Shown: positions 33,066 to 53,155 of the stretch, piece after piece | How the letters are laid out: the number at the start of each line of letters is the position of its first letter | Numbering within the stretch: the stretch's first letter is position 1 | Source of the DNA: Flavobacterium sp. | GTDB lineage: Bacteria > Bacteroidota > Bacteroidia > Flavobacteriales > Flavobacteriaceae | Length of the DNA: 64,000 nt | NCBI RefSeq assembly: GCF_027484205.1 | Contig: NZ_JAIXUB010000019.1 | Location: 62,001 to 126,000, forward strand | Direction: 5' to 3' | Translations under genes and position numbers: made by a program | The notes under the pieces: model-generated | What the model saw: the letters and a program-made list of their open reading frames with translations, nothing else | Database searches by the model: none | Told to the model about the DNA's origin: nothing

Positions 33066-34304
33066 TTAATTATTTATCAGAAATGTAGCTAATTTATCGT
33101 GATGTGAGTTTATATAATTAATAGATTTAGTTACTATATAATCAGTAAAATCTTTATAAAAATCATTATCTAAAGACAGTTTTTTTAAAGTATCTGAATC
33201 ACACAAATCAACTTTGTAACCTTTAAAATCTTCAAAAAGGTAATCTTCTAGCCACCAATTACTTCGTTTTCTACCTAATTCAATATATTCATCTTTATAA
33301 TCTCCATTAAAAATAAAGATTCCAACAAAAAGTTGACCAAAATAATTGTCTTTGTTTACTGCAAAACTTTGGATTCCAAAGAAAAGCTTTTGTTCTTCTT
33401 TACCTTTTAATTTAATCCAAATTTGTGAATAGCTACTTTCGATGTTACTTCCTTTGTAAATTAAATAATCATTACCAAGTTTTTCTTGAAGCTTTTTAAA
33501 AACAGTTTCTCGTAAACGTCCTTTAAATTTTGATAATGCTTTATTTACGTTTTCAGCAAGATATACTGCTTCATCATAGTTTTTTAAAATCAAGCTAAAC
33601 AATTCATTTTCTTCTTCGTTATTCATCGTATGAGTAAGTTTTTTAATCAATAAAGTGTATTGTTTTATAGATTCTCGGAGAGTAGGATAATCATAAGTTT
33701 CTTTCATGCACAGAGTAAGCCATTCAATAATATGCTTTTTATATGAAATGATATGATAATCACTTTCTGAAAGGCTTCCACAACTGTTTATAGATGGTTT
33801 ATTTCCCCAAAGTGTCAAATAATAAACGGTATTCTTTCCCTCATTATGTTTATAATAACGCTCAATTTGTGCATATTGATCGACAGCATATATTTTATTT
33901 TCAATGCTGATGCAATTGTTGTTTTTATCCCAAAGGTAAATATCTATTCTTCCACCTGTTTTGTCCTTATCATTTCTAGGTCCAATATAATGTTCTGTTT
34001 TTACTTTGGTAGAGGGAATATCAAGTTTGTGAATTTTATTAAAATTTTCTTCCTTCTGTTCATCTGTAATTGATTTCAGAAATAACTCCAAAAACAAGGT
34101 ACCACAAAGATGTGTCCCTTTTGGATTAAGAAGTTCGGCTATAAATGCTGAATGGGTATCATTTTCACGATGCTCCATTTTAAGAATAGAAAAAATATTG
34201 AATTTTTCACCTCTTAATTTTTCCTTTTCCTGTTGATGGCGAATAAGTTTGCAAGTATCTGTAAGCATTTGCTCACATTGTTTAAGATCTATTTTTTTAA
34301 TCAT
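33066..34304 (-). CDS. PD-(D/E)XK nuclease-superfamily protein (PDDEXK_4-like) at the end of the defence operon
   Basis: 412 residues from the ATG at 34304, 8 bp after the upstream stop; an ATG at 34325 would overlap that gene by 13 nt. The nuclease core is in the N-terminal third: FSILKMEHRENDTHSAFIAE, LLNPKGTHLCGTLFLELFLK, then TGGRIDIYLWDKNNNCISIE and NKIYAVDQYAQIERYYKHNE. The order Asp (GRIDIY), Glu-Asn-Lys (IENK) and Gln fits the PD-(D/E)XK fold. The C-terminal half (GIQSFAVNKDNYFGQLFVGI) looks like the DNA- or ligand-recognition part common in this family. It probably cuts nucleic acid; the target is unknown. Its place after hsdM suggests a defence role. Confidence 0.8.
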   Translation of the reverse strand: MIKKIDLKQCEQMLTDTCKLIRHQQEKEKLRGEKFNIFSILKMEHRENDTHSAFIAELLNPKGTHLCGTLFLELFLKSITDEQKEENFNKIHKLDIPSTKVKTEHYIGPRNDKDKTGGRIDIYLWDKNNNCISIENKIYAVDQYAQIERYYKHNEGKNTVYYLTLWGNKPSINSCGSLSESDYHIISYKKHIIEWLTLCMKETYDYPTLRESIKQYTLLIKKLTHTMNNEEENELFSLILKNYDEAVYLAENVNKALSKFKGRLRETVFKKLQEKLGNDYLIYKGSNIESSYSQIWIKLKGKEEQKLFFGIQSFAVNKDNYFGQLFVGIFIFNGDYKDEYIELGRKRSNWWLEDYLFEDFKGYKVDLCDSDTLKKLSLDNDFYKDFTDYIVTKSINYINSHHDKLATFLINN

Positions 34305-34312
34305 TATATTTT

Positions 34313-34654
34313 TTAAGCGAGCCAATATGAAATAGCAATTTGTCTATTGTTCATAAGAAATCCTTCACCAATAAATAAAGTTTTTTCATTACCTAATAAC
34401 CTCCATTCAGCGATGTAAATACCATTAGTGATTCTGAAAGTCAATGTACAGTCTACTCTTCCTTCAACGGCATCAAAATAGAATGAATCATAAATATGAA
34501 CTTCTGTGCCATTTTCAACTAAGGTATCATCTTTAAGTTTTGCGGTTTCGGTATATATCTCTGCATTAGGGGTTAAATTATTGGTATATACACCATTCAA
34601 GTTTCCATTTAATTCTATGTTAAATAAAATTATTCCTCTAAATTGTTTTTCCAT
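34313..34654 (-). CDS. Small beta-rich protein of unknown function in the defence operon
   Basis: 113 residues, no signal peptide or transmembrane helix. Alternating strands (FRGIILFNIELNGNLNGVYT, DSFYFDAVEGRVDCTLTFRI, NGIYIAEWRLLGNEKTLFIG) suggest a single beta barrel or sandwich. It starts 9 bp after the hsdM stop and ends just before the PD-(D/E)XK gene, so it is translated between the methylase and a nuclease. I do not recognise the family. A role as a regulator, adaptor or inhibitor of the adjacent nuclease would fit its size and place, but this is inference only. Confidence 0.7.
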   Translation of the reverse strand: MEKQFRGIILFNIELNGNLNGVYTNNLTPNAEIYTETAKLKDDTLVENGTEVHIYDSFYFDAVEGRVDCTLTFRITNGIYIAEWRLLGNEKTLFIGEGFLMNNRQIAISYWLA

Positions 34655-34663
34655 TTTTATTTC

Positions 34664-36154
34664 TTATTTCAAACCATTTAAAATAGCTCTAAAACTAGCT
34701 AAACCAGCTTCAATATTTTCTACAATATCTAAAGCCAAAACATCAGGGTCGGGTAGGTTGTCTAAATCGGCTAAGGATTTATCTTTTAGCCAAGTGATGT
34801 CTAAACTGGTTTTATCTCTGGCAATGATTTCATCATAGGTGAACTTTCTCCAACGTCCTTCGGGATTGGTTTCCGCATTATACGTTTCGGTTCTTTTATT
34901 GATGTTTTCCGATTGGTATAAATTTATAAAATCACGTAAGTCCTCCAACTTCAACGGATTCTTTTTCAACGTATGATGAATGTTTGTTCGGTAATCATAC
35001 ACCCATACTTCTTTTGTCCATGGGTCTTTGCTTGAAGGTTTACCATCAAAGAACAAAACGTTTGCTTTTACACCATTAGCATAAAAAATTCCTGTTGGTA
35101 AACGTAAGATAGTATGCAAATTAGTCGTGTCCAATAATTTTTTGCGAACGGTTTCACCAACGCCACCTTCAAACAAAACGTTATCAGGTAATACTACAGC
35201 GGCTTGACCTGTTGTTTTTAGCATGGTGCGAATGTGTTGTACAAAGTTTAATTGCTTATTACTTGTGGTTACCCAAAAGTCTTGACGATTATAGGTCAAA
35301 TCTTCTTTTTCTTGTTCGCCTGCTTCATTGGTAAACGTCATGCTACTTTTTTTACCGAATGGTGGATTCGCAAGGATATAATCATAACGTGTTCCCGAAT
35401 CTGTAATCAAAGAATCATTAGGTGAAATAAAATTATCAGAATCGATATCACCAATGTTGTGCAAGAACAAGTTCATTAAAGCCAAACGTCGAGTACTAGC
35501 AACAATTTCATTGCCAAAAAACGTTTCATATTTCAAGAACTTAGCTGCATCTTTGTCCAGTTCTCTATTGGCTACAATCCAATCGTAAGCTGCCAAAAAG
35601 AAACCACCTGTTCCACAAGCTGGGTCGGCTATGGTTTTGTTAGGTTCTGGACGCAAACATTCTACCATCGCTTTGATTAATGGGCGAGGAGTGAAGTACT
35701 GACCAGCACCACTTTTGGTATCTTCTGCGTTTTTCTCTAAAATACCTTCATAGATGTCGCCTTTGTCTTTTACACCCATCAATATCCAGTTCTCGGCATT
35801 GATTAGTGCAATTAGTTTATACAACTTGGCTGGGTCTTGTATTTTGTTTTGACTTTTTACAAATATTTGTCCTAAGATACCTTTTTCTTTGGCTAACTCT
35901 CGCAACATAGTGTTGTAATGCGTTTCCAACTCACTACCACTTTTGCTGATTAAGGTCTCCCATGCAAACTCGCTTGGAATAGGCATGGTTCTGTTATGTG
36001 GTGGTTTGGTGTATTCGTCTGCCATTTTTAGGAATAACAAATACGTTAGTTGCTCCAAGTAGTCGCCATAACCCACACCATCGTCTCGCAAGGTTTGGCA
36101 AAATGCCCATACTTTACTAACTATACTGGATGCGTTTGAGTTTTCTTTGCTCAT
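34664..36154 (-). CDS. hsdM: Type I restriction-modification methylase subunit HsdM
   Basis: 496 residues, standard length. The N-terminal helical HsdM domain (SIVSKVWAFCQTLRDDGVGY, YLEQLTYLLFLKMADE) is followed by the methylase domain with SAM motif ADPACGTGGFFLAAYDWIV, the catalytic NPPFGKK (N6-adenine type) and ANVLFFDGKP near the end. With HsdS it methylates the bipartite target and with HsdR it restricts. It is separated from its partner hsdS by about 5.8 kb of other defence genes and a transposable element. The usual neighbour order is hsdM-hsdS, so this is abnormal. Codon use looks less AT-rich than in the inserted genes. Confidence 0.96.
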   Translation of the reverse strand: MSKENSNASSIVSKVWAFCQTLRDDGVGYGDYLEQLTYLLFLKMADEYTKPPHNRTMPIPSEFAWETLISKSGSELETHYNTMLRELAKEKGILGQIFVKSQNKIQDPAKLYKLIALINAENWILMGVKDKGDIYEGILEKNAEDTKSGAGQYFTPRPLIKAMVECLRPEPNKTIADPACGTGGFFLAAYDWIVANRELDKDAAKFLKYETFFGNEIVASTRRLALMNLFLHNIGDIDSDNFISPNDSLITDSGTRYDYILANPPFGKKSSMTFTNEAGEQEKEDLTYNRQDFWVTTSNKQLNFVQHIRTMLKTTGQAAVVLPDNVLFEGGVGETVRKKLLDTTNLHTILRLPTGIFYANGVKANVLFFDGKPSSKDPWTKEVWVYDYRTNIHHTLKKNPLKLEDLRDFINLYQSENINKRTETYNAETNPEGRWRKFTYDEIIARDKTSLDITWLKDKSLADLDNLPDPDVLALDIVENIEAGLASFRAILNGLK

Positions 36155-36240
36155 GTTTTTTTATCTTTTATTTTACAACGGATTAAAATCATGTTGTTAC
36201 AATATTTGTCGTTCCGAACTTTTTTATTATCTATTTTTAT

Positions 36241-36389
36241 TTACAACGGATTGAAATCCATTGCTACAATATGGGGTCATCCCTATGGGATTTTTACATT
36301 ACGTATAAGAATCATAGGTTCGGTTTGTGTAAGGCTGGACTTCAGTCCAGTGATAATACGCTACACAAGAAAAGAACCATAGGCACGAC
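36241..36389 (+). repeat. RAYT-associated hairpin repeat, left copy
   Basis: It contains in order ACGGATTGAAATCCATTGC, ATCCCTATGGGAT, a degenerate AATCATAGGTT, CTGGACTTCAGTCCAG (36335-36350, 7-bp stem) and GAACCATAGGCAC. A partial unit (aacggattaaaatc) precedes it near 36177. The right-hand copy at 36938-37097 has the same order of modules. Confidence 0.8.
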
Positions 36390-36851
36390 CTATTTTAACT
36401 CCTCAAAAATATAACGTTCATCATAAGGAATTTCAAATTTTTCTAGATATTTCAAATATTCCTCCTTAAAACTTTCTTTTTTATGATGTTCCTCTTGATT
36501 GGCGACGTAATTATAAACTTCTTTGATATGCGAATGACTGTATGAAAAAGCTCCATAACCTTCTTGCCATTCAAATCGATTTAATAAAAGTCTATTATCA
36601 TTAATATATTTTGAAGATTTGGCTTTAACTGTTTTCATTAATTCTGATATAGAAACTGTTGGTTTTAATCCTAAAAAGCAATGCACATGGTCTTCAACTC
36701 CATTTACAATGATGGTTTTGCAACCTGTTTCATTGATTAGATTTCCTATTACTGCAAAAACATCTTTTCTCCAATCTTTGTGAAGAACAGCTTGTCTGTA
36801 TTTTACCGCAAAAACGGCTTGAATATATATTTGATGATAGGTGTTTGCCAT
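36390..36851 (-). CDS. IS200-like / REP-associated tyrosine (HUH) transposase
   Basis: 153 residues with the full Y1 transposase pattern: the N-terminal strand YHQIYIQAVFAVKYRQAVLH, the HUH metal motif VEDHVHCFLGL (His55, His57), SISELMKTVKAKSSKYIND, and FEWQEGYGAFSYSHS. The catalytic Tyr (115) lies in EVYNYVANQEEHH. Such enzymes cut single-stranded DNA at hairpins. It looks intact. The hairpin-rich repeats on both sides would be its natural substrates, as for RAYT/REP systems. It is oriented with the defence operon and could be read through from it. Confidence 0.93.
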   Translation of the reverse strand: MANTYHQIYIQAVFAVKYRQAVLHKDWRKDVFAVIGNLINETGCKTIIVNGVEDHVHCFLGLKPTVSISELMKTVKAKSSKYINDNRLLLNRFEWQEGYGAFSYSHSHIKEVYNYVANQEEHHKKESFKEEYLKYLEKFEIPYDERYIFEELK

Positions 36852-36937
36852 ATTTTTATTTTTTCATTTTATGCAACGGATTGAAATCCATCGCACAAAA
36901 TTAATCATCCCTACGGGATTTTATATTATCATTTTAT

Positions 36938-37097
36938 TTACACAACGGATTAAAATCGATTGCTACAAAATGTTTCATACCTACGGGATTTTTACATCAT
37001 GTGATAGAGCCATAGGCTCGACCTATTTTGTAAGGCTGGACTTCAGTCCAGTCGATTTAACAAGCTACACGAGAAAAGAGCCATAGGCTCGGCCCAT
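36938..37097 (+). repeat. RAYT-associated hairpin repeat, right copy
   Basis: A direct copy of the left repeat: AACGGATTAAAATCGATTGC, ACCTACGGGAT, GAGCCATAGGCTC (5-bp stem), CTGGACTTCAGTCCAG at 37036-37051, then GAGCCATAGGCTC again. A shorter partial copy (acggattgaaatccat ... atccctacgggat) lies at about 36872-36920 next to the transposase start. Confidence 0.8.
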
Positions 37098-37172
37098 ATC
37101 GTCTCGCAACGTTTTGCAAAACGCCCATACTTTACTTACTATACTGGTGGCGTTTGTGTTTTCTTTGCTCAT
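37098..37172 (-). pseudogene. Relic of a second hsdM 5' end (first 25 codons)
   Basis: 75 bp aligned without gaps to the first 75 bp of intact hsdM (36154-36080), with 68 identical positions. It encodes MSKENTNATSIVSKVWAFCK then TLRDD, against MSKENSNASSIVSKVWAFCQ in the intact gene: three amino-acid changes and four silent ones. It starts 9 bp after the DUF262 gene stop, normal operon spacing, and is cut off by the RAYT element. This is the level of divergence expected between alleles, so it looks like the stump of an earlier hsdM. Confidence 0.9.
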
Positions 37173-37181
37173 TATATATTT

Positions 37182-39026
37182 TTATTTCCAAATAATTTTT
37201 ATTAAATCAAAAAGCAATTTATGTCTTTCTTCAAGTTCTTCTTTTCCAAATTGATCCATAAATCTGAAATTTAAATCATAATCATTAATCATCTTTTTAA
37301 AATCCAATTTAGATTTATAGGTATCTTCTCTTAAGGTCTCATTCCAGTATAAAGTATTAGCATATGATTTTAATTTTTTCTTATAGGTTTCATTATTACT
37401 GGAAATGTTATCTAAGCCTTTTAATAGTAATAATCCTCCAAGTCTATTTCTTTCTCTTTCAAAAAGTTCTTCATCGTTATCAAAAAGTGCTTTATTCTCA
37501 GTATTGTACGATAAGATGTGCTCAACATGAAAGCCATTTTTCCAGCCTGTATTTTGAATTAAGTCATAAAATGTGTGTTTCATGTTCATTTTGGTATTAT
37601 CAGCGATGAATTTTTCAATTCGGGAAAAGAAATATCTCTTAAATCGCTTGTCCAATTCAATTCCAGTTTCTTTAAAGAAAGCATAATTCAAAATATTGTC
37701 AACTGTCACACCTCTTACATCAGATAATTGTTGCATTAAGTATTTGTCAAACACTTGATTTATAACTAATAAAGGTTGATTTCTGATTTCAGCACTTAGT
37801 TTATTTATTTCCGTTGCAAATGTGTTACTGTTATAACTTCTTTGCAACTGTAAAAGACAGAACATTCTATCAAGTTGTCTGCTTATAGTTACTATTTTTT
37901 GTTCTTCTTCTTCATCATTTATGTTGCATGCAGACAAAATCAACAAAAATTGCGTATTCATTTCGGTTAGATTATTGTAAAATACATATGGTTGATTCTC
38001 ATCAAATTCTATTGCATAACTATATATCTTCGCGTACAGATTTGTATAATAAATAAAATCATTAAGAATAAATTTTTTAACACCCTTTGGATTATGTTTA
38101 AGTTGTAAAACTCTATCATATTCATCTTCAAACATTACGCGGTGATAATCTTTGTCAAATTTTTGTGCGAGACCACGAGTATCTGCTAGTTTAGATTTTA
38201 AGAAATAGGTAAAAAACTCGTCAATTTCATCTTCTCTAAAATCGTTCAGTTTTTTTACCTGATCTTCCCAAATTTCATTAAGTTTTAAATTTAATAATTC
38301 ATCCTTATCAATTTGCCCTAATAATTTACCCTTAAGAATCTCATATGGTTTTAACTTAACACCTCTGTCATTTATTACTTCAAACACCATCGGTACTTCA
38401 GTTTGTTCAACTGAAAGATTAATCAACACTAATCTGTTTAAGAAAAAGAATATGAAAGATTCTAATTTGTGTTCTTTACCTGAGAATTCTGCATCCAACC
38501 ATTTTGAAATAATTTGATAATTAGTTAACATATTTTGAGCAGTTATTCCAGATGATGAGTCAATTTTATCAAGAGAAATTCCATCAAGAAGCCCTTGTAA
38601 AGCAGCTTTATGTAACTCATGATTCATCCAGAACTCTCTATTAAATCCCGAATGTCCAGTTATTTTATTTTTAACCCAGTCAGTTAATTTTGAGTTATTA
38701 CTTTCAGCTAGATGTTTTAACTTAATTAATATTAAAGTTATTGTCGTTAGTCTTTGTTGACCATCAACAATAAATATTTTGCCATCAACCGTATTAGTCA
38801 CATAGGTATTTAAATAATACCAAGAATATTTTGCAATTAATTGGTCTAGAGGAATATCCGAATCTTTGTGTTTTAAATATTCTTCATTAAATTTATAGAA
38901 CACATCTTCCAACAGCCGTTTTACAGGAATTTCGTTCCATTTATATTGTCTTTGATAAAAATCTATATAGTAAGTAGTGTTTGAAAATACCCTATCAATA
39001 TTTTGCTTGTCTGGTGATATGTCCAT
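37182..39026 (-). CDS. DUF262-DUF1524 protein (GmrSD-like type IV restriction enzyme, single chain)
   Basis: 614 residues. The N-terminal DUF262 domain (GmrS-like, ParB/Srx fold) has YYIDFYQRQYKWNEIPVKRL and the hallmark FIVDGQQRLTTITLILIKL, followed by MVFEVINDRGVKLKPYEILK. The C-terminal DUF1524 domain (GmrD-like HNH) has FHVEHILSYN with the catalytic His, and NRLGGLLLLKGLDNISSNNE. GmrSD enzymes cleave modified phage DNA in an NTP-dependent way. The fused form like this is the usual one in many bacteria. It is 30 bp downstream of the HNH gene and immediately before the hsdM relic. Confidence 0.88.
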   Translation of the reverse strand: MDISPDKQNIDRVFSNTTYYIDFYQRQYKWNEIPVKRLLEDVFYKFNEEYLKHKDSDIPLDQLIAKYSWYYLNTYVTNTVDGKIFIVDGQQRLTTITLILIKLKHLAESNNSKLTDWVKNKITGHSGFNREFWMNHELHKAALQGLLDGISLDKIDSSSGITAQNMLTNYQIISKWLDAEFSGKEHKLESFIFFFLNRLVLINLSVEQTEVPMVFEVINDRGVKLKPYEILKGKLLGQIDKDELLNLKLNEIWEDQVKKLNDFREDEIDEFFTYFLKSKLADTRGLAQKFDKDYHRVMFEDEYDRVLQLKHNPKGVKKFILNDFIYYTNLYAKIYSYAIEFDENQPYVFYNNLTEMNTQFLLILSACNINDEEEEQKIVTISRQLDRMFCLLQLQRSYNSNTFATEINKLSAEIRNQPLLVINQVFDKYLMQQLSDVRGVTVDNILNYAFFKETGIELDKRFKRYFFSRIEKFIADNTKMNMKHTFYDLIQNTGWKNGFHVEHILSYNTENKALFDNDEELFERERNRLGGLLLLKGLDNISSNNETYKKKLKSYANTLYWNETLREDTYKSKLDFKKMINDYDLNFRFMDQFGKEELEERHKLLFDLIKIIWK

Positions 39027-39056
39027 AATTTATGTTTTCTATTTAATTAGTAATTT

Positions 39057-40031
39057 TTATTTTATTAGTTCTAATTGTCTTGCTATATCTTGTGTAAATT
39101 TTGAAAACGGTCTTTTATAACATTCTTCAGGAGTTGAATAATTGCCTATAATTAATCTATCGATGAAGGCTTCATCAGGAAAAAGTTTATCATCTTTTAA
39201 AATACTCAATAAGTCTTTTTTATAAGTAGGACTGTAAATTTTTTTAAGATAAATTAATTCTTCAATTAAGTCCTTTTGAGTATCATAAATTTCCTCTATT
39301 CTAAATGTATCGTTGTATTTTTTTTTATCGTAACCAATTATATCAAAGTCAGATTTTAAATCAGATTTTTTATTAGTTTCCCAATATAATTGTTCTGTTT
39401 TTCTATCTAATTTAAATTTTATTAGTTCGAGATTATTAGGATCTTCCTCAAAAAAATTAAATTCAATATCATTATTTGTTTTTGCTTTGTTACAAATTGA
39501 ACATGATGGAATTAAATTAAAAAAACTGGTTGCTAAAAACGGATATTTTGATTTTGCTTTGATATGGTCTAATTCAAAAGTTGCTTTCCTTTTTCTTATT
39601 TGACCTTTTAACTTTTTGGTTTTAAAGTATTCCACAGGAATTATTACTGTTAATTGAGCATTGCAATAAAAACAAGTTTTATATTGTAATTCATTTGCAA
39701 AATCTAAATACTCTTTACTTCTTAAATCTTCATATCTTAAGCATTCGACAATGGCTTCCCAAAATTTTGGGGTTATATTTTTCTGTTTTATGATATTATC
39801 AAATTCCTCACATAGTTCGACAATTCTATTTGGTTTAGCTTTTAAAATGTCTCTGTATTCAACTATAATTTTGTTTATGTATTTTACTTTATCAGCACTT
39901 TTAAATCCATTTCTTTTTTTTAAAAGTTCTAATTTATCAATAGGTTTTGTGAAATTTCTAGATTTAAATAGGTTGTCCGAGAAATTAATAACTTTTTTTT
40001 CAAGGCTTTTGTTAATTAAAATTTTTCTCAT
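39057..40031 (-). CDS. HNH endonuclease, PtuB-like partner of the adjacent ATPase
   Basis: 324 residues. An N-terminal helical part of about 110 residues precedes the HNH nuclease: KTCFYCNAQL (Cys120, Cys123), TFELDHIKAKSKYPFLATSF (Asp155-His156) and FNLIPSCSICNKAKTN (Asn172, Cys177, Cys180, Asn181). This is the zinc-containing CxxC...DH...N...CxxCN layout of PtuB-type HNH nucleases in Septu defence. It starts one base after the stop of the ATPase gene, matching the ptuA-ptuB order. In Septu the ATPase and HNH act as a complex that degrades DNA. It is assigned as Septu-like by architecture, not by a database match. Confidence 0.82.
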   Translation of the reverse strand: MRKILINKSLEKKVINFSDNLFKSRNFTKPIDKLELLKKRNGFKSADKVKYINKIIVEYRDILKAKPNRIVELCEEFDNIIKQKNITPKFWEAIVECLRYEDLRSKEYLDFANELQYKTCFYCNAQLTVIIPVEYFKTKKLKGQIRKRKATFELDHIKAKSKYPFLATSFFNLIPSCSICNKAKTNNDIEFNFFEEDPNNLELIKFKLDRKTEQLYWETNKKSDLKSDFDIIGYDKKKYNDTFRIEEIYDTQKDLIEELIYLKKIYSPTYKKDLLSILKDDKLFPDEAFIDRLIIGNYSTPEECYKRPFSKFTQDIARQLELIK

Positions 40032-40032
40032 A

Positions 40033-41946: not shown

Positions 41947-41958
41947 AACTTTTTTACT

Positions 41959-43347
41959 TTAAACCAACTCCCCACTAAACGCCTTCTTCAAGATACTTTG
42001 CCTCAATGCCTCGGCTTGTTGCAAGCTTTGAGCAATACTTTCCTCCATTTTATCAGCCACACTCAAACGGCTTTCGATTTCTTGAACGATTTGGTGTTGT
42101 TCTTCGAGTTGAGGAAGTGGAATTGGCGCTTGTCTAATAGTTGCCATTGATAATGAGGGTTGCGCAACAGCTTTCACAGCTGTCATCATAAGACTTTTGC
42201 CAATTGTAGATTGATAAAAATATTCAATATATTTTGAGTTTGCATCAATATATGGTCTTGCCATTCCAATATTTGGACCTAAAAAATATTCACCAGTAGG
42301 AACTGTACCTATATTCCCTGTACCAGCACCAACAAATACTATTAATAATTCTCCTCCATGAAGCTTTGACCTTTTAAGCATTTCTACGCTTTCTGATTTG
42401 ACCTTTGAAAAATCTGTATATTTAAAACCATTATTACCCACATTTTCAGCTTTCAGAACTGGTAAATTTCCATTATCATCATATTTCACATAATCTGTGT
42501 ATTCAAAACCAGCTAATTTTGTTACAAAACAAATAGTTCCTAATTGTGTCCATAACCAATTACTAGGAATTTCCCATTTTTTTTCATTATGTAAATCACT
42601 TGGTTTATCAGGAATGGTTAATGATTTTGGTTTACTAGGTTTTTTAATATTATTTTTATCAAATTGAACTAGTTCTTTTTTCCATTCATTTAATTGTTTT
42701 AGATAAAAAGCTTCTTTTTCTAATAGTATTTTGTTTGTTATATCGCTAGAACTTTGTATATCTACTTTTTTTAACCTCCAATTTTTTGTTAACTTCCCTT
42801 CAAAAGCCCATTTCAATACACTTTGTCTATAGGTTTTGAGTTGTTGTTGTGCGGTTTTTAAATCTTCTATGCCTTTGTCTAACTCACTAAAGAGTTCTTC
42901 TATTTTTGAGACAATGGCTTGTTGGGTTTCAGGATTAGGAAATGGAATAAGAGTTTCTCTTATTGTTTCACCAGAAATAGCTTTAAATGTTGTGCCAGTT
43001 CCTTTGCTGTCGAGTTCATGCTGAATGCTTCTTAAAAAATAAAAACCATATTTGTAATTTTCAAATCTTATTGCGGCTAATCCTCGCCCAATACAACATT
43101 GTTGATTAGCAATATTTGTAGTACCAACTGGAGCTCTTACAGATAACAAAATATCAAGTGGCTCAGCAATTTTTGTTGGTTTTGAACAATATTTTTTTAC
43201 TACAGGATATAAATCAGTAAACTCAGCTTTACCTTGAAAAAAAGGCATTCCCTTAGCGTTTTCATTATAAGTATCACTTGGTGGTGATTGCCCCATAATT
43301 ATTTTACTAACTTCATTCAGTTTTTTTATTTGCCAGTTTTGTTCCAT
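41959..43347 (-). CDS. hsdS: Type I restriction-modification specificity subunit HsdS
   Basis: 462 residues with the expected two target-recognition domains and two conserved helical spacers. TRD1 is at about 1-130 (WQIKKLNEVSKIIMGQSPPS, LLSVRAPVGTTNIAN), then spacer 1 (QAIVSKIEELFSELDKGIED, LKTAQQQLKTYRQSVLKWAF). TRD2 is at about 255-405 (EIPSNWLWTQLGTICFVTKL), then spacer 2 (HQIVQEIESRLSVADKMEES, AEALRQSILKKAFSGELV). It is a full-length protein. It sits between hamB-like and ATPase genes and away from hsdM. The conserved ends look richer in G+C than the recognition domains, typical of shuffled HsdS. Confidence 0.94.
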   Translation of the reverse strand: MEQNWQIKKLNEVSKIIMGQSPPSDTYNENAKGMPFFQGKAEFTDLYPVVKKYCSKPTKIAEPLDILLSVRAPVGTTNIANQQCCIGRGLAAIRFENYKYGFYFLRSIQHELDSKGTGTTFKAISGETIRETLIPFPNPETQQAIVSKIEELFSELDKGIEDLKTAQQQLKTYRQSVLKWAFEGKLTKNWRLKKVDIQSSSDITNKILLEKEAFYLKQLNEWKKELVQFDKNNIKKPSKPKSLTIPDKPSDLHNEKKWEIPSNWLWTQLGTICFVTKLAGFEYTDYVKYDDNGNLPVLKAENVGNNGFKYTDFSKVKSESVEMLKRSKLHGGELLIVFVGAGTGNIGTVPTGEYFLGPNIGMARPYIDANSKYIEYFYQSTIGKSLMMTAVKAVAQPSLSMATIRQAPIPLPQLEEQHQIVQEIESRLSVADKMEESIAQSLQQAEALRQSILKKAFSGELV

Positions 43348-43352
43348 TTATT

Positions 43353-45542
43353 TTAATTAATAGACTTTATTTTATCTATTTCATATTTTATTAAACCTAT
43401 TTGTTTTAATCTTTGTTCAACACCTTCTCTTTTAAAACTTGCAATTAGATTTTCTGTAGTAATGTCATTTACTCTTAATGTTTTTTGAATTTTAGAAATC
43501 GCAGAATGGGGAACATCATATTCTAATAATGCTGCTAAATTAATAGGCAAAAATCCATTTTCTAACTGAGAAGCATAAAATGTGTAATTGCCATAAGTTA
43601 AGCCTCTTTTATTAAAAGCATATTTTTGTATGTCATTAACTAAACTAATCCATTTGGGTAATTTATAATCAAACCAATGTCTAGTCACATTCAACACAAA
43701 ATAGGATAAGTAATTAATTCTACCTAATTCATCTGGAATTTTATTTACCCAATATTCATCATCAATTAATTCATCAATTACTCCTCTGGTAGACTTTTTA
43801 AAATTATATTTCATTGCTAAAGAAGCTAATTGCTTTCCAGAAAGTACACCTGCTTTATTGTCTTTACTTTTCAAGAGATTATTCCAACATAATTCAAATA
43901 CAACCTCTAAATTTTTATATCTAGGGTAATTGTCCCAGTTTAATAGTTCAAAATATTTATCAATGTTTTCTTCTATTTCGTTCAAGATATTAATTTGTCC
44001 TTGTATTGGTAAAGATGCATTTCTTCTTAAAATTTCTTTAAACTCATCATCAAATCCATCAAATTCTTGTAATCTTAATTTAGAAGATTCTTTTAATTCA
44101 GATTCATCTAGATTAATTAATATTTCAAGTGGAGCATCATCTTGCGAAAAAATGGGAATATCTACATCAAGTTCTAATTGATTGGGTCTAGCTTCAAATC
44201 GATATACGTTGCCAATAAAATAATTATTCATTCTTCCACTTCTCCCTGCTATATTTTTGTAATCAAAAAAATCAATATCTTTTGTGCCTTTCTTTTTGTC
44301 AAACAAAATTACATTTTTGGCAGAAGTATTAACACCTTCAATTAATGTAGAGGTACAAAACAAATATCTAATACTTCTCTTATTAAATAAATCAACAATT
44401 GTGCTTCCTAAATGTCTTGGAACTGCTCCGTGATGAATGGCTGTATATCTTTTTAAACCATCAATTAAAAACCAACTTTTGTTTATGTTTTCATGCAACC
44501 ATTCCATAACTGAGCCATTTTCTTTATCAGAAATAAAGTCTGGTCTATTCTCATTCAAGTAGGAGACAAAATCAACAGCTAATTCAGTAGCTTTCTTTGG
44601 AGATGAACAATATATAAGTGTAGGTTCTTCAGTATTTAAAAGCAAGTCAAAAAGTTCTTCCTTTTTCTTTAACTCTTTTTCCTTCTTTTTTAATTTTTCA
44701 CTAATTTCCATTGAAATTTCATCTACTGCAACTGTTCTAAAATCTGATGGAAACCAAAGTAAATCATATTTTTGTTTAAATTCTATTGGTATCTCTTTTA
44801 TCATTGGACCCAACATATAAAATTTATTGGTATGCTTTAATAATCTATGTAAAGCTGTATTCAATGTAATAGCCCTATCATCATCCCTTTTTAGACTAAG
44901 CTTATAAAACTCATCTATGATAAAAAAATCTATTTGTGGAAACATATTATATTCAACAACACGTTCACCAGTAAACAAAAATAAATTTCCTTTATCTTGA
45001 GAAGGAGTTTGTGAAGTTGATACAATTACTTTATATATATCATTATATTTTGATAATTTTTTTCTTGTTTCATCTAATAATGCTAAAGTGGGTTGAATAA
45101 TTACAATGTTTTTATATTTTTTACTTGCGACAACTTCTTCAATAAGTAAACTTTTTCCAAAACTAGTTGGGGCACTTAAAACAACACTCTTATCACTCTG
45201 TAAGGCAGTTGAAATTTCAAATTGTTCCTCGTGTAAATATACATTCTCTAAAAAAGGAGATTTGTGTAACTCATATCTAAGAAAAGAACTACCAGTTAGT
45301 AAGTTCTCGTCAACATAAGGATATAAACCATAGCTTTCAATTATATCATTAAAAAAAGATTTACAATTCTCATCTATAAAATCCCACTTTTCAAGTAGTC
45401 TTATGACAAGATCTCTACCATCATTTTCATTTTTAGTAAAAAGTTTATTAATAAAACTCAAAAGACCATATGTTTCTTCAAAATTGAATTCAAATTTTGA
45501 ACTTATAAAATCAATAGCATTTTCATAATTTTCAAAACTCAT
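43353..45542 (-). CDS. Superfamily 2 helicase, HamB/AbpB-like (Hachiman-type defence)
   Basis: 729 residues. SF2 motifs of the Ski2-like group are visible: Walker A VVLSAPTSFGKSLLIEEVVA (124-131), motif II FFIIDEFYKLSLKRDD (Asp210-Glu211), motif III-like FYMLGPMIKE, motif IV-like PTLIYCSSPKKATELA, motif V FCTSTLIEGVNTSAKNVILF and motif VI KNIAGRSGRMNN. Its start overlaps the stop of the DUF1837 gene by 4 nt (ATGA). A DUF1837 protein plus SF2 helicase defines Hachiman (HamAB) and the related AbpAB. The length here is closer to the shorter AbpB-like forms. It should sense or unwind foreign DNA and license the nuclease partner. Confidence 0.87.
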   Translation of the reverse strand: MSFENYENAIDFISSKFEFNFEETYGLLSFINKLFTKNENDGRDLVIRLLEKWDFIDENCKSFFNDIIESYGLYPYVDENLLTGSSFLRYELHKSPFLENVYLHEEQFEISTALQSDKSVVLSAPTSFGKSLLIEEVVASKKYKNIVIIQPTLALLDETRKKLSKYNDIYKVIVSTSQTPSQDKGNLFLFTGERVVEYNMFPQIDFFIIDEFYKLSLKRDDDRAITLNTALHRLLKHTNKFYMLGPMIKEIPIEFKQKYDLLWFPSDFRTVAVDEISMEISEKLKKKEKELKKKEELFDLLLNTEEPTLIYCSSPKKATELAVDFVSYLNENRPDFISDKENGSVMEWLHENINKSWFLIDGLKRYTAIHHGAVPRHLGSTIVDLFNKRSIRYLFCTSTLIEGVNTSAKNVILFDKKKGTKDIDFFDYKNIAGRSGRMNNYFIGNVYRFEARPNQLELDVDIPIFSQDDAPLEILINLDESELKESSKLRLQEFDGFDDEFKEILRRNASLPIQGQINILNEIEENIDKYFELLNWDNYPRYKNLEVVFELCWNNLLKSKDNKAGVLSGKQLASLAMKYNFKKSTRGVIDELIDDEYWVNKIPDELGRINYLSYFVLNVTRHWFDYKLPKWISLVNDIQKYAFNKRGLTYGNYTFYASQLENGFLPINLAALLEYDVPHSAISKIQKTLRVNDITTENLIASFKREGVEQRLKQIGLIKYEIDKIKSIN

Positions 45543-46378
45543 ATTTTTTGCATGTTTTTTAATCTAACATCTAGTTCAGAATTCAATTCATCTTTATTTG
45601 GGACAGGGAGTAGTAATAAAATTAACTCAACATCTGTAGCAACTTTTGTGTTGAAAGTGTTGAATAAATCTCTACACTCGCTTTCAAGAGCTTCAAAATA
45701 TTCTTTTGAATTACTATCATGTGAAGTAAAAATTGAACTTGAATATGTACATACTAATGGAATTACAATAGTATCGAATACTTCATCTAAATTTTTATGT
45801 TTATGCATTAAATTAGTCCAAAATTCAACTTCAGGAATATCTTGAGGGATTTTCCTTCTGATTAGTTCAAATTCTTTTTTTAAATAATCAGCATTAACAT
45901 GATTAACAACATCTTTAGCTAATTCTTTTACTCCATCAAATCCATCTAAATATAGTTTGGATTCACCTAACCATAACTTTTTTTTATCTTCTTCAATTGT
46001 TATGTGTATCGCATCAAAGCCATGGACTGTTGCATTATGAGCATCTTTAAAGTATATTTTGGAAACGAGTGGAATTGTATTACACCAATCTCTCAATAAA
46101 AGATGTAAAATTAATTCACCAAATTCTCCTCTTTTTTTGTATTTATCGGTTAAATAGACTGTATTGGCTGCTTCGACTATTCTTTCAACCATTTCAGTGT
46201 AGGGAATACTCATGCCAGCATGATACCCAAAAGCAAATTCAGGAATAACTTTACGTATAACTTCAACAAGTGGTGTTAATCTAAATTTATTAGTTTCAAA
46301 ACCAACATGATAAACTCTCAAATTGGCTTCTGAAATATGCTCACTTAATACTAAATCTGATTCAAATGGTTTACTCAT
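45539..46378 (-). CDS. DUF1837 nuclease, HamA/AbpA-like (Hachiman-type defence)
   Basis: 279 residues. The DUF1837 fold is a PD-(D/E)XK-type nuclease. YKKRGEFGELILHLLLRDWC is followed by VHGFDAIHITIEEDKKKLWL and GESKLY, giving Asp122 and the Glu139-x-Lys141 pair, plus an upstream Glu in the GEFGE helix. All expected catalytic residues are present. In Hachiman, HamA is held inactive by HamB and released to degrade DNA on infection. It is translated 8 bp after hsdR and overlaps hamB by 4 nt, so the pair is embedded in the restriction operon rather than having its own promoter. Confidence 0.88.
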   Translation of the reverse strand: MSKPFESDLVLSEHISEANLRVYHVGFETNKFRLTPLVEVIRKVIPEFAFGYHAGMSIPYTEMVERIVEAANTVYLTDKYKKRGEFGELILHLLLRDWCNTIPLVSKIYFKDAHNATVHGFDAIHITIEEDKKKLWLGESKLYLDGFDGVKELAKDVVNHVNADYLKKEFELIRRKIPQDIPEVEFWTNLMHKHKNLDEVFDTIVIPLVCTYSSSIFTSHDSNSKEYFEALESECRDLFNTFNTKVATDVELILLLLPVPNKDELNSELDVRLKNMQKI

Positions 46379-46386
46379 AATGTATT

Positions 46387-49185
46387 TTAAGCCGCTAAAA
46401 CTTCATTTAATTCATTAATAATCTTATCTGTTTCCTCTCCAAACAACTGCCACATTTTACTCAAACCGCCTTCGGCATTAAATGGGCTTAGGTCAAAGTC
46501 GTCTTTGTCTATGCTAAAACTATTGGCTACATAGTCTTTCATCATGCGCAACCATTGCATTTGGGCTTCGGTAAAAGCATTATGTTGTCCTGCGTTTTTA
46601 TCAAAAATCCACTTTTTAAAATTCGCATCCACCGTTTTATCATAAGCGGTTAAGTTGTTATCAATTCCTACTACACGTCTTATCAATGAAACCAGAGCAA
46701 TCAACTCGTTTTTTACCGATCCTCTGGCTGAGCTTGTTGAAGTCTCTAGTTGCTCATAAGCGCGCCAAACGGCTAAAGGTGCTAATAGTGGTTTTTCGGT
46801 TTTTAGTTTTTCGCACAAGTCTTTTATCATTTTGTATGTAAACGTGCGGTGTCTGTAGTCTTGGGCATAAAAAATCTGCAAAGCCGTAATTTCGTCTTTG
46901 TGGCTTTCAATCCATGTTTTAAAATCTCCAATCAATGCTGAGCTTGCCGAAGTATGGTCTTTTACCCAACCTATATTGGTTATAGTGTCAATATTGCTAG
47001 TATCAATAATTTGGTCTAACTTTTTGCGTATATCAACAATAAAATCACGCAAGTAAGGGTTATGAAATACAGCAACTGCTTCTTCAATTAGTTTTTTCTT
47101 TTCGGTTTCAATTGCTTTTTCAATCTCCATAGGAGCGAAGCCAAGTAGGTTTCCTTTTACACTAGTTTCAATTTGTTGGTTAGCATCTGGGTCATAGGCA
47201 TGCAACAATTGTTTTACTACATGGTTAATAGTAAATCCATTGGCATTTTCGGCAAATTTAGCTTTGTCTTTATCGCTCAATTGTCGGTCTAAACGAATCA
47301 ATCGGTTGGCTAAAGTAGTCAACATATCTTCGCTAGTATTTCCCATTGCTACACTTTGCAACACATCTTTTAACGAAATGCCTGGAGCTTTTTCCAAAGG
47401 TCGGCTGTCTGTTTTTTGCGATTGCTCCACACCAATTGCATCAATAATTACAAAATGGTCTTTACTGAATTTGGCTGTGGGTGTGCCTTTGGCTTTCAAT
47501 TCTTCTATAGAGCAAGTTCGTGTACCACGACCTTTCATTTGTTCGTAATAGCTACGACTTTTTACATCACGCATAAACAACAATACTTCCAATGGTCTTA
47601 TGTCAGTTCCTGTGGCAATCATATCTACTGTAACAGCAATACGTGGGTAATAATCGTTCCTAAATTGTTGTAACACACTTTTTGGGTCTTCCTCACTGCG
47701 GTAGGTTATCTTTTTGCAAAACTTGTTTTCTTCGCCAAATTCTTCTCGAACAATTTCAATAATATCCTCGGCGTGACTATCGGTTTTGGCGAAAATCAAA
47801 AGTTTCGGCACTTCAAAATTACCATTGTTATCCCTACGGTCAGGAAACATGGCAGGCAAGTTGTCTTTGGTTGCTCTTATAATAGTGCGTATAGTACTTG
47901 GGTTTACAATGTCTTTGTCCAATTGTTTACCGCTGTATTCTACATCTTCATCTAAATGTTCCCAAAAACGTTTACGAGTCAAGCGTTCACGTCGGTCAAC
48001 AGGTTCTCCGAAACTTTTTAAAATACTACCGTTTTTGGTGATTTCGGTTTCAATGGTAAAGACATTATAAGGTACTAAAACCCCATCAATGACCGCTTTT
48101 TCAAAACCATAATCCGAAACCAAATTTTGATTGAAATAACCAAATGTTCTATTGTCTGGAGTAGCTGTTAAGCCAACTTGAAATACATCAAAGTAATCCA
48201 ATACTTGTTTCCAAAGGTTGTAAATACTGCGGTGACATTCGTCAATAACTATAAAATCAAAAAACTCTATTGGCACTTTTTCGTTATACCCAACAGGAAC
48301 GGGTTCTTTGGGTTCAAAACGAGTTTCATTTGGGTTTTCTTCTTCGGCACTTTCATCCAATTCCGTTTCTTTTAAAATGGAATACATACGTTGAATAGTG
48401 CTAATATATACTTGTGAATCGTTAGGGATAAAGGAACTACTCAATCGAGTGACGCCATACAATTCGGTAAACAAACGATTGTCTTCTTGTGCTGTAAACG
48501 CTCTAAATTCGCCTTCGGCTTGTTCTCCTAAGTTTTTAGTATCTACCAAAAACAAAATGCGTTTGGCTTTGGCATATTTCAACAAACGATACACAGCAGT
48601 AATAGCAGTAAATGTTTTACCAGAACCTGTTGCCATTTGAATTAACGCTTTAGGCTTTTGGTCTTGAAACGATTTCTCTAGGTTGTTGATTGCCGTAATT
48701 TGGCAATCACGCAAACCATCTTCAGGAAGTGATGGCAAATCATGCAAACGACCACGCAAGGATTTAGTCTCTTTGAACCAATTTAAAAGTGTTTCGGGTC
48801 TATGAAACGTGAATACATTTCGAGCACGAGGTTTTGGGTCTCTAAAATCGGTGAATTTTATAATTTCTCCATTACTCAAATAAACAAAAGGTAATGGGGC
48901 ATTGTTTAATAAACGAAGTTTGGCTTTAGCATAACCTTCCGCTTGATCTTCGGCAACAGTTAACGTACCAATTTCAGCACGCTTGGCTTCAATAATTCCT
49001 ACAGGAGTTTTGCCCACAAACAGCACATAATCAGCAGGACCAACATCGGTAACGTATTCTTTGATGGCAATACCCAAACCCGCAGCAAGATTGAATTTCT
49101 TCTTATCTTGTATAATCCAACCACTAGCAATCAATTGCTTGTCGATATTATCGCGTGCTATTTGTTCTGGGTTCTGGTTGGTCAT
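46387..49185 (-). CDS. hsdR: Type I restriction endonuclease/translocase subunit HsdR
   Basis: 932 residues. The N-terminal PD-(D/E)XK nuclease has TDVGPADYVLFVGKTPVGII and EAKRA (Asp52, Glu66-x-Lys68). The SF2 translocase has LIQMATGSGKTFTAITAVYR, FIVIDECHRSIYNLW (DECH box), VGLTATPDNRTFGYF, then MIATGTDIRPLEVLLFMRDV and EQMKGRGTRTCS (motif VI). A C-terminal helical region contacts HsdM. It is the first gene of the operon, next to a -7 box, and is followed after 8 bp by the HamA-like gene. It appears intact; G+C is higher than in the inserted genes. Confidence 0.96.
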   Translation of the reverse strand: MTNQNPEQIARDNIDKQLIASGWIIQDKKKFNLAAGLGIAIKEYVTDVGPADYVLFVGKTPVGIIEAKRAEIGTLTVAEDQAEGYAKAKLRLLNNAPLPFVYLSNGEIIKFTDFRDPKPRARNVFTFHRPETLLNWFKETKSLRGRLHDLPSLPEDGLRDCQITAINNLEKSFQDQKPKALIQMATGSGKTFTAITAVYRLLKYAKAKRILFLVDTKNLGEQAEGEFRAFTAQEDNRLFTELYGVTRLSSSFIPNDSQVYISTIQRMYSILKETELDESAEEENPNETRFEPKEPVPVGYNEKVPIEFFDFIVIDECHRSIYNLWKQVLDYFDVFQVGLTATPDNRTFGYFNQNLVSDYGFEKAVIDGVLVPYNVFTIETEITKNGSILKSFGEPVDRRERLTRKRFWEHLDEDVEYSGKQLDKDIVNPSTIRTIIRATKDNLPAMFPDRRDNNGNFEVPKLLIFAKTDSHAEDIIEIVREEFGEENKFCKKITYRSEEDPKSVLQQFRNDYYPRIAVTVDMIATGTDIRPLEVLLFMRDVKSRSYYEQMKGRGTRTCSIEELKAKGTPTAKFSKDHFVIIDAIGVEQSQKTDSRPLEKAPGISLKDVLQSVAMGNTSEDMLTTLANRLIRLDRQLSDKDKAKFAENANGFTINHVVKQLLHAYDPDANQQIETSVKGNLLGFAPMEIEKAIETEKKKLIEEAVAVFHNPYLRDFIVDIRKKLDQIIDTSNIDTITNIGWVKDHTSASSALIGDFKTWIESHKDEITALQIFYAQDYRHRTFTYKMIKDLCEKLKTEKPLLAPLAVWRAYEQLETSTSSARGSVKNELIALVSLIRRVVGIDNNLTAYDKTVDANFKKWIFDKNAGQHNAFTEAQMQWLRMMKDYVANSFSIDKDDFDLSPFNAEGGLSKMWQLFGEETDKIINELNEVLAA

Positions 49186-49206: not shown

Positions 49207-49214
49207 CAAAGATA
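49207..49214 (-). promoter_or_regulatory. -7 box of the defence operon
   Basis: On the minus strand TATCTTTG (49214-49207) fits TAnnTTTG, 21 bp before the hsdR ATG. No good TTG -33 box lies at the normal distance. No further promoter of this quality was noticed between the operon genes. Confidence 0.5.
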
Positions 49215-53097: not shown

Positions 53098-53155
53098 AAT
53101 TTCTAAAATTTTATTTTGCCTACTCTATAATCCTCTTTTCGGCATACGAGGTTTT

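Follow-up and report, generated by a model that had tools for sequence, protein, structure and literature searches.

A type I restriction-modification locus of Flavobacterium sp. holds other whole modules of predicted defence function interleaved with hsdR, hsdS and hsdM. We consider it probable that such a locus, with predicted defence modules in both of its internal gaps, is an exchangeable unit of layered defence, in which nucleases that act separately, and whose co-transcription is predicted, would attack phages that escape restriction. This reading draws on the gene order in the window (the whole stretch of 64,000 nucleotides that was analysed) and on related loci, in which the hsd genes form a frame of hsdR, slot 1, hsdS, slot 2 and hsdM, and the genes in the slots are the cargo.

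Gene content of the locus

From 49185 to 33066 on the minus strand, the order is hsdR, HamA, HamB, hsdS, PtuA-like ATPase, PtuB-like HNH nuclease, GmrSD-like enzyme, hsdM, a 113-aa protein and a PD-(D/E)XK nuclease, and all ten genes have the place, strand and order that were originally predicted for them. The features are as follows:

49207..49214, minus strand: TATCTTTG, weak candidate for a Bacteroidota -7 box, 29 nt upstream of the start of hsdR
46387..49185, minus strand: hsdR, 932-aa restriction/translocase subunit (motifs EAK, GSGKT, DECH; match to the solved type I R subunit 3h1t, E 1e-21)
45539..46378, minus strand: HamA-like nuclease subunit, slot 1 (PF08878, E 9e-54; PADLOC HamA)
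43353..45542, minus strand: HamB-like helicase, slot 1 (PADLOC HamB, E 3e-227; PDB 8zue chain B, E 6.5e-87)
41959..43347, minus strand: hsdS, specificity subunit with two recognition domains (Methylase_S)
40033..41946, minus strand: PtuA-like ATPase, PADLOC PDC-M62A, directly behind hsdS (AAA_21/AAA_15, PDC-M62A and PtuA models)
39057..40031, minus strand: PtuB-like HNH nuclease, PADLOC PDC-M62B (HNH, PDC-M62B and PtuB models)
37182..39026, minus strand: predicted GmrSD-like modification-dependent nuclease, DUF262 and DUF1524 (PF03235, PF07510; HEC-06/Orf5/SspE models)
37098..37172, minus strand: first part (5' end) of a second hsdM copy, about 25 codons (identical in 68 of 75 bases to the intact hsdM start)
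36863..37099, minus strand: array of palindromic repeats to the left of the transposase gene, with a similar array to the right
36390..36851, minus strand: intact IS200/IS605-type Y1 transposase, 153 aa (PF01797, NF033573 above cut-off)
36163..36397, minus strand: second array of palindromic repeats, to the right of the transposase gene and resembling the left one
34664..36154, minus strand: hsdM, methyltransferase subunit, 496 aa (PF02384, N6_Mtase; PF12161, HsdM_N)
34313..34654, minus strand: 113-aa protein, slot 3 (no family above its cut-off)
33066..34325, minus strand: PD-(D/E)XK nuclease, slot 3 (PDDEXK_4 / PADLOC PDC-S26)

Intact R, M and S subunits are encoded together, and by its genes the locus is a type I restriction-modification system, for which sequence-specific methylation and HsdR-dependent restriction are predicted. 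The identity of hsdR rests on its match to 3h1t, its motifs and 51 long homologues among the fetched hsd loci. The genome holds one copy of it. In hsdS, residues 141-180 and 421-462 form conserved blocks. The modules had originally been named from motifs; for the genes other than hsdR, searches of Pfam and PADLOC back these names, and the catalytic motifs that we take to mark the proteins are intact by string search.

Slot 1 of the window holds HamA, a DUF1837 nuclease, adjoining the helicase HamB, as in Hachiman, and the pair is a predicted anti-phage module. A sequence search of solved structures gave no match for the HamA protein at E 0.001. Among 397 genomes of the family, HamA was found in two at E 1e-30, the second without hsd genes nearby; HamAB in L134 had no hsd genes within the roughly 20 kb fetched. 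Across the 80 named relative loci, neither HamA nor HamB was the best match of any ORF, and the window is the one place where HamAB was seen in slot 1.

In slot 2 lie the PtuAB-like pair and the GmrSD-like enzyme, with the hsdM scar and the IS200-type element at its end. The predicted fold of the PtuA-like ATPase is closest to PtuA complexes, making it a PtuA-type ATPase by predicted fold; its neighbour is a candidate PtuB-type HNH partner, whose predicted fold is closest to PtuB-type chains in VIA-align. As the curated NCBIfam cut-offs were not reached (39.8 of 500 bits for PtuA and 18 of 150 bits for PtuB) and those models describe the retron Ec78 type, we file the pair as PtuAB-like, or PDC-M62, and not as Septu proper. 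Neither protein matched a solved structure at E 0.001 in the sequence search. The GmrSD-like gene encodes both a GmrS (DUF262) and a GmrD (DUF1524) domain, with the DGQQR and HNH-type motifs present, and is predicted to cleave DNA that carries modified cytosine.

In slot 3, the 113-aa protein has 42 homologues, of which the named ones are from Flavobacterium; one relative follows hsdM in Flavobacterium soli (L021). A relative of the PD-(D/E)XK gene lies directly behind hsdM in another locus (L109).

The genes had been said to follow each other mostly with gaps of 1 to 30 bp. This holds for eight of the nine junctions, whereas the ninth, between the GmrSD-like gene and hsdM, spans 1,027 bp, the content of which had been missed. 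By ORF coordinates, the junctions from hsdR through hsdM measure 8 bp, an overlap of 4 bp, and 5, 12, 1, 30 and 1027 bp; the 113-aa gene follows hsdM after 9 bp, and the PD-(D/E)XK gene follows after about 8 bp if it starts at an internal ATG (34304). The long junction contains the second hsdM fragment, which was recovered again in a search for core-gene-end fragments, as well as the two repeat arrays and the transposase gene. In F. soli, which has the window's slot-2 trio but two Argonaute-pair genes in slot 1, the colinear block continues into hsdM at the position of this scar. The left array forms stable hairpins (RNA folding z -4.5). The palindromic repeat is confined to this locus in the genome, and in two related loci (L020, L022) the array is present without a transposase.

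The transposase has the HVHC motif of Y1 HUH enzymes. Two further copies are present in the genome at 49 and 54% identity, but the repeat, a candidate for the mobile ends of the element, was found at this locus alone. All eight Y1 hits lay inside hsd spans and none outside (p 0.0013), two of them being tandem copies in L082 and two lying in L091; targeting and tolerance would both produce this clustering, which cannot separate them. Transposition as the engine that moves cassettes was not adopted, as the Y1 gene occurs in only 6 of 79 loci tested.

Related loci and exchange of their cargo

The gene order is not a one-off assembly artefact, the fate that the original prediction had allowed for. 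Complete frames were found in 73 of 104 related loci, 59 in a named set (the 80 nearest of 572 relatives, hence not a random sample) and 14 in a second set, and homologues of the window's hsdR head all 73. The 104 loci were counted after dropping four duplicates (L115-L118, of L030, L029, L032 and L040), and 5 of 24 other class hits were left out because they lay at contig ends or were broken (G668, G670, G714, G720, G748). With the frame defined as R-S-M, 31 of the 104 loci had no complete frame in view; five (L113, L114, L128, L130, L132) gave no hsdR match in up to 12 ORFs before hsdM. The frame also occurs on a Gemmobacter plasmid, where a DUF262 gene separates hsdS from hsdM. A match on a Methylomonas plasmid was rejected as a frame: hsdM is present, and hsdR and hsdS were not recognised in the stretch.

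Counting ORFs of at least 90 aa, slot 1 is loaded in 50 of the 73 frames and slot 2 in 66; 48 are loaded in both slots and five in neither, so that 68 carry cargo in at least one. The cargo falls into 105 clusters, and 18 of the 22 recurrent ones are slot-exclusive. Of 20 chosen cargo representatives, 11 matched PADLOC models at E 1e-8, including Argonaute with REase, Septu PtuA and PtuB, AbiZ, PD-Lambda-2 and HEC-06, and nine had no match. The PADLOC candidates PDC-M62, PDC-S26 and HEC-06 reportedly come from guilt by embedding, in a 2024 preprint by Payne et al. As evidence of defence, PDC and HEC matches are partly circular, because those models were themselves found by embedding. The window's PtuAB-like pair and PD-(D/E)XK gene match PDC models, which means that embedding has already been used for discovery.

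The two slots appear to be exchanged independently. The 46 doubly loaded loci, including the window and not counting Y1 as cargo, have 46 different combinations. Cargo is shared by 89 pairs of loci in slot 1 and by 108 in slot 2, and three pairs share some in both, compared with 3.6 in permutations (3 against 3.1 with Y1 removed). Thinning at 95, 90 and 85% HsdM identity gave 2 against 2.3, 1 against 1.4 and 1 against 0.9. No linkage was detected in any of the six pairings of slot 1, slot 2, TRD1 and TRD2 (p 0.08-0.92, lowest for TRD1-TRD2), although a two- to three-fold linkage could escape detection, as the expected counts are small (1.6-3.6). By comparison, hsdR and hsdM stay together: 216 pairs fall into the top tenth of identities for both genes, where 27 would be expected.

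DNA homology breaks at the ends of hsdR and hsdM and within the conserved parts of hsdS. Of 17 core-gene fragments in slots, 12 represent the slot-facing end, five are internal and none is from the far end, which suggests recombination at those ends. Cassettes would enter and leave by recombination at conserved core-gene blocks. An empty chromosomal insertion site was sought and given up, as the two genes on either side occur in too few genomes of the genus to define one (3 of 101 at E 1e-30 and 9 of 101 at E 1e-20; the window's own genome is the only one on both lists).

These data also bear on whether the interleaved proteins form one new multi-subunit restriction complex unlike its parts. 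Interleaving and tight spacing are all that speaks for such a complex, whereas the modules are unlinked between loci and occur elsewhere without hsd genes, and close relatives of the hsd subunits accompany entirely different cargo; we regard it as highly improbable.

Shared expression and the place behind hsdS

Joint transcription of the locus from a promoter before hsdR is predicted from the layout of the frames. Across the 73 frames, 211 ORFs of at least 90 aa between hsdR and hsdM are co-oriented and 9 opposite (209 and 9 in a separate count), compared with 395 and 246 among ORFs outside the frames of the same loci. The median same-strand gap is 6 bp inside frames and 80 bp outside; over frame junctions it is 9 bp (n=355). 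In promoter scans, boxes of the form TANNTTTG, which we take to be the Bacteroidota -7 consensus, showed no excess, and sigma-70-like sites were at shuffle level (86 against 87.3), so transcription units are not definable by such a scan. A single transcript is least certain between the GmrSD-like gene and hsdM because of the 1,027-bp gap with its scar, hairpin repeat and transposase; the hairpin array with its terminator-like site and the IS make separate expression of hsdM possible.

An ordinary defence island, in which insertions between hsd genes are merely tolerated and bring neither shared expression nor benefit, would also explain why every doubly loaded locus differs in combination and why the slots hold IS200-type elements too. 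However, the excess of co-orientation (211:9 against 395:246) and the short gaps argue for selection on co-transcription, and nearly all frames are loaded, with recurrent cargo keeping to one slot. Such passive accumulation seems to us quite unlikely.

Under the preferred reading of layered defence, one transcript would span the locus. HsdRMS would cut unmethylated DNA, the GmrSD-like enzyme would cut modified phage DNA, and the HamAB-like and PtuAB-like modules may respond to other features of infection, with the result that phages escaping the restriction enzyme would meet separately acting nucleases.

The position of the PtuA-like ATPases allows a further possibility. In hsd loci, they lie behind hsdS in 20 of 20 cases with hsdS in view, as counted with two profiles derived from members in slot 2 and from the family of the window's protein, leaving out hits in L077 and L144, where hsdS was not recognised. 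The PtuAB-like pair could be held inactive by HsdS or HsdM2S and freed once the restriction enzyme is put out of action by a phage inhibitor, as in PrrC/EcoprrI. We consider such guarding unlikely. HsdS is not obligatory, as the pair occurs in three loci (L136, L137, L140) where the roughly 20 kb fetched contain no hsd genes, and cassette exchange within slots, with most recurrent clusters slot-exclusive, would also explain the position. The origin of the profiles and the two omitted hits further weaken the count, and two slot-1 members match an AriA model.

A bolder reading, which we hold only tentatively, combines exchange and guarding: the type I operons of this lineage would be a natural combinatorial immunity machine, a mobile hsdR/hsdS/hsdM chassis on which slot 1, two recognition domains and slot 2 are reshuffled independently by recombination at core-gene ends, and PtuA-type guards, stationed directly behind hsdS, would monitor HsdS for antirestriction by phages.

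Implications and comparison with known systems

If layered, exchangeable defence is the correct reading, a common restriction enzyme doubles as a cassette platform, and a single recombination event could bring in a defence module that is new to the bacterium and part of an operon from the outset, independently of DNA specificity. It also yields a search rule for new defence genes, namely to read both gaps of R-S-M loci, given their 105 cargo clusters and the nine of 20 representatives without a PADLOC match. The PtuA-behind-hsdS rule would moreover open a direct test of an old question, namely whether effectors embedded in such loci act as guards of the restriction enzyme.

That accessory genes nest in type I loci is, as originally stated, already published, with C. 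jejuni rlo/mlo, TgvAB, DarTG2 and PrrC as cases that place defence genes within such loci. In the literature searched, whose scope left out preprints and most subscription papers, independent exchange of two type I slots was not recognised in any paper; what appears to be new is the measured independent exchange, together with the scars and the position of PtuA.

In EcoprrI, the restriction enzyme keeps the anticodon nuclease PrrC silent (PMC2610378, PMC12707154). Like the window's modules, PrrC is an accessory effector in a type I locus, although its coupling to the enzyme is described and that of the window is hypothetical. In the RRDM island, DarTG2 lies inside an EPEC type I system and is repressed by RptR (PMC12255303). 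There too a defence module sits between hsd genes, but shared promoter control, present in RRDM, is only predicted for the window; the RRDM cargo is a toxin-antitoxin system and a dedicated repressor gene leads the operon, whereas no window gene matched a repressor in the family searches.

TgvAB, a GmrSD-like pair in the type I operon of V. cholerae VPI-2, protects without HsdR activity, and complementary action with the type I system has been proposed (PMC11411939). As predicted for the window, a modification-dependent nuclease lies within a type I operon. However, TgvAB is a two-protein GmrSD between hsdR and hsdS, whereas the window has one fused protein between hsdS and hsdM, plus further modules.

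Miller et al. (2005) reportedly described C. jejuni hsd loci with rlo and mlo ORFs. The rlo ORFs lie in the hsdR-hsdS gap and the mlo ORFs in the hsdS-hsdM gap (PMC5183652), and RloF has the GmrS domain DUF262 (PMC4619093). The window's locus is of this kind, since non-hsd genes occupy both of these gaps in it as well. The C. jejuni case, as described there, concerns one species, whereas the lineage of the window carries recognisable multi-gene modules in both gaps, across phyla and with their independent exchange measured.

The hsd frame in related loci

The original prediction described an operon in which other defence modules sit between the subunits of a type I restriction system. This order is not a one-off, as a frame of complete hsdR, hsdS and hsdM in R-S-M order was found in 73 of 104 related loci (ORFs called mechanically, four duplicates removed). 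We refer to the hsdR-hsdS gap as slot 1, to the hsdS-hsdM gap as slot 2 and to the genes within them as cargo. The named set contained the best 80 of 572 HsdM relatives, mostly from Bacteroidota with some from other phyla, and thus represents nearest relatives, not a random sample. Searches with hsdM in 397 family and 395 class genomes (E 1e-120 or 1e-150) identified hsdM relatives in 10 family and 25 class genomes, counts that include the genome of the window, and regions were retrieved for 28 of the 33 others. The 31 loci that lacked a complete frame were cut by contig ends or had no hsdR match; in L113, L114, L128, L130 and L132, none was found among up to 12 ORFs 5' of hsdM. Certain relatives have a core gene broken into two ORFs (hsdR in L022; hsdM in L027, L126 and L131), so some frames may be decayed.

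Cargo was present in slot 1 of 50 of the 73 frames and in slot 2 of 66; 48 frames had both slots loaded and five had neither. Cargo ORFs of at least 90 aa were nearly all co-oriented with the frame (209-211 versus 9 opposite), compared to 395 versus 246 for ORFs of these loci that lie outside the frames, and the median same-strand gap was 6 bp inside versus 80 bp outside. The 209 cargo proteins formed 105 clusters. PADLOC models, some of which were reportedly themselves derived by embedding, matched 11 of 20 chosen cargo representatives (E 1e-8), leaving nine without a match. On viral-classed IMG/VR contigs (L145-L149, L152 and L153; 10 viral loci fetched), both slots were empty in six of seven complete frames, versus five of 73 cellular ones (p 1e-5), with several of the viral frames looking related. 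A frame with overlapping genes, hsdR-hsdS-DUF262-hsdM, lies on Gemmobacter aquarius plasmid unnamed2 (L143, 6759-14470), which has mobC and a relaxase gene, yet is classed as non-mobilizable in PLSDB.

Gap content and core-gene fragments

The original prediction, which gave gaps of mostly 1 to 30 bp, did not mention a 1,027-bp gap between the GmrSD-like gene and hsdM, and this gap has content. At its start lie roughly the first 25 codons of an additional hsdM copy (68 of 75 bases match the intact gene). Behind this fragment come two similar palindromic arrays with an IS200/IS605 transposase gene between them:

36863-37099 and 36163-36397: multi-hairpin palindromic arrays, either side of the transposase gene

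The array folds far more stably than shuffled sequences (z -4.5), contains a terminator-like site and matches only this locus in the window's genome, where two more transposase copies lie at other places. The same array, without transposase, is found in slot 2 of L020 (9757-9985) and L022 (9076-9283), and thus in three Flavobacteriaceae frames. IS200/IS605-type (Y1) transposase genes recur in the hsd slots of L047, L080, L082, L084, L091 and L092, mostly before hsdM and in several cases surrounded by short palindromes; eight Y1 matches lie inside hsd spans and none outside. Elsewhere in the window, a DUF805b cis-regulatory RNA match above the Rfam gathering score lies at 53117-53152 (minus strand), and the 113-aa gene behind hsdM (34313-34654) belongs to an uncharacterised family of which 42 proteins were found, those with an organism name being from Flavobacterium.

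Across the 74 frames scanned, 17 hsd-gene fragments were located within the slots or immediately after them. Twelve of these, with that of the window among them, come from whichever end of the core gene adjoins the slot: in slot 1 the end of hsdR, in slot 2 the start of hsdM or the end of hsdS, and behind hsdM its own end. The other five are internal pieces, and there are no far ends. Outside the complete set, L032 has an hsdM start ahead of further cargo. A single crossover within a core-gene end would produce a fragment of this type, and local duplication would give a similar picture.

Cargo exchange and linkage

By its nearest matches, the window is Flavobacterium-like. When it was aligned at the DNA level to its nearest relatives, homology reached the last base of hsdR, covered the conserved central and C-terminal regions of hsdS and resumed from the start of hsdM; apart from the IS-side array, the slots had no match. 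The exception is F. soli (L021), where colinearity with the window (82%) runs from the hsdS tail, spans the PtuAB-like pair and the GmrSD-like gene and extends into hsdM. Its slot 1 holds an Argonaute and a helical REase partner, related to slot-1 cargo of a Planctomycetia locus (L085). L024 and L052 also have a PtuAB-like pair in slot 2.

Across 74 frames (the 73 and the window), 89 locus pairs had common cargo in slot 1, 108 in slot 2 and three in both, where permutation expects 3.6 (3 versus 3.1 with Y1 excluded). Thinning at 95, 90 and 85% HsdM identity left 2, 1 and 1 pairs versus 2.3, 1.4 and 0.9 expected; as expected counts are small, the power of these tests is limited. For the HsdS recognition domains, TRD1 and TRD2, no linkage was detectable with slot 1, with slot 2 or between the two domains (p 0.08-0.92, lowest for TRD1-TRD2). 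hsdR and hsdM clearly co-travel (216 versus 27). The 46 doubly loaded loci carry 46 combinations. Recurrent cargo was slot-exclusive in 18 of 22 clusters versus 3.2 expected; once clusters with identical locus sets were merged, the figure was 14 of 17. Such fidelity is what replacement within a slot would produce, and shared descent also contributes to it.

PtuA-like genes, mechanism and known systems

A PtuA-like ATPase, detected with two profiles for which slot-2 members and the family of the window's protein had served as input, occurred in 13 of the 73 frames, always in slot 2; 12 were the first gene behind hsdS, four overlapping it by 4 bp. Counting also the window, three diverged loci (L113, L114 and L132) and the differently ordered L135, L138 and L139 (hsdM-hsdS-PtuA-PtuB), the gene lies downstream of hsdS in 20 of 20 cases, directly so in 19. 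L077 and L144, partial or unclear with no recognised hsdS in view, were left out, and three further PtuA-like relatives (L136, L137 and L140) had no hsd genes within the 20 kb fetched. Slot 1 does contain ATPases of other kinds, as two of its proteins match an AriA model. L139 also has a GmrSD-like gene between hsdR and hsdM.

The main rival interpretation, which chiefly concerns the PtuAB-like pair, is a guard model, in which HsdS or HsdM2S would keep the pair inactive until a phage inhibitor disables the restriction enzyme. We favour layered, separately acting nucleases that probably share one transcript, because modules also occur away from hsd genes, their exchange shows no detectable linkage and TgvAB offers an analogy. 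HsdRMS would act against unmethylated DNA, the GmrSD-like enzyme against modified DNA, and the HamAB-like and PtuAB-like modules against other features of infection.

Guilt by embedding is reportedly the subject of a 2024 preprint by Payne et al. In the literature searched, we found no description of two slots and two recognition domains measured to be independent, nor of the end-fragment scars or the PtuA position. Embedding of genes in type I loci is itself already known: it is described for rlo and mlo ORFs (PMC5183652), RloF (PMC4619093), DarTG2 (PMC12255303), PrrC (PMC2610378) and TgvAB, the last being protective without HsdR activity (PMC11411939).
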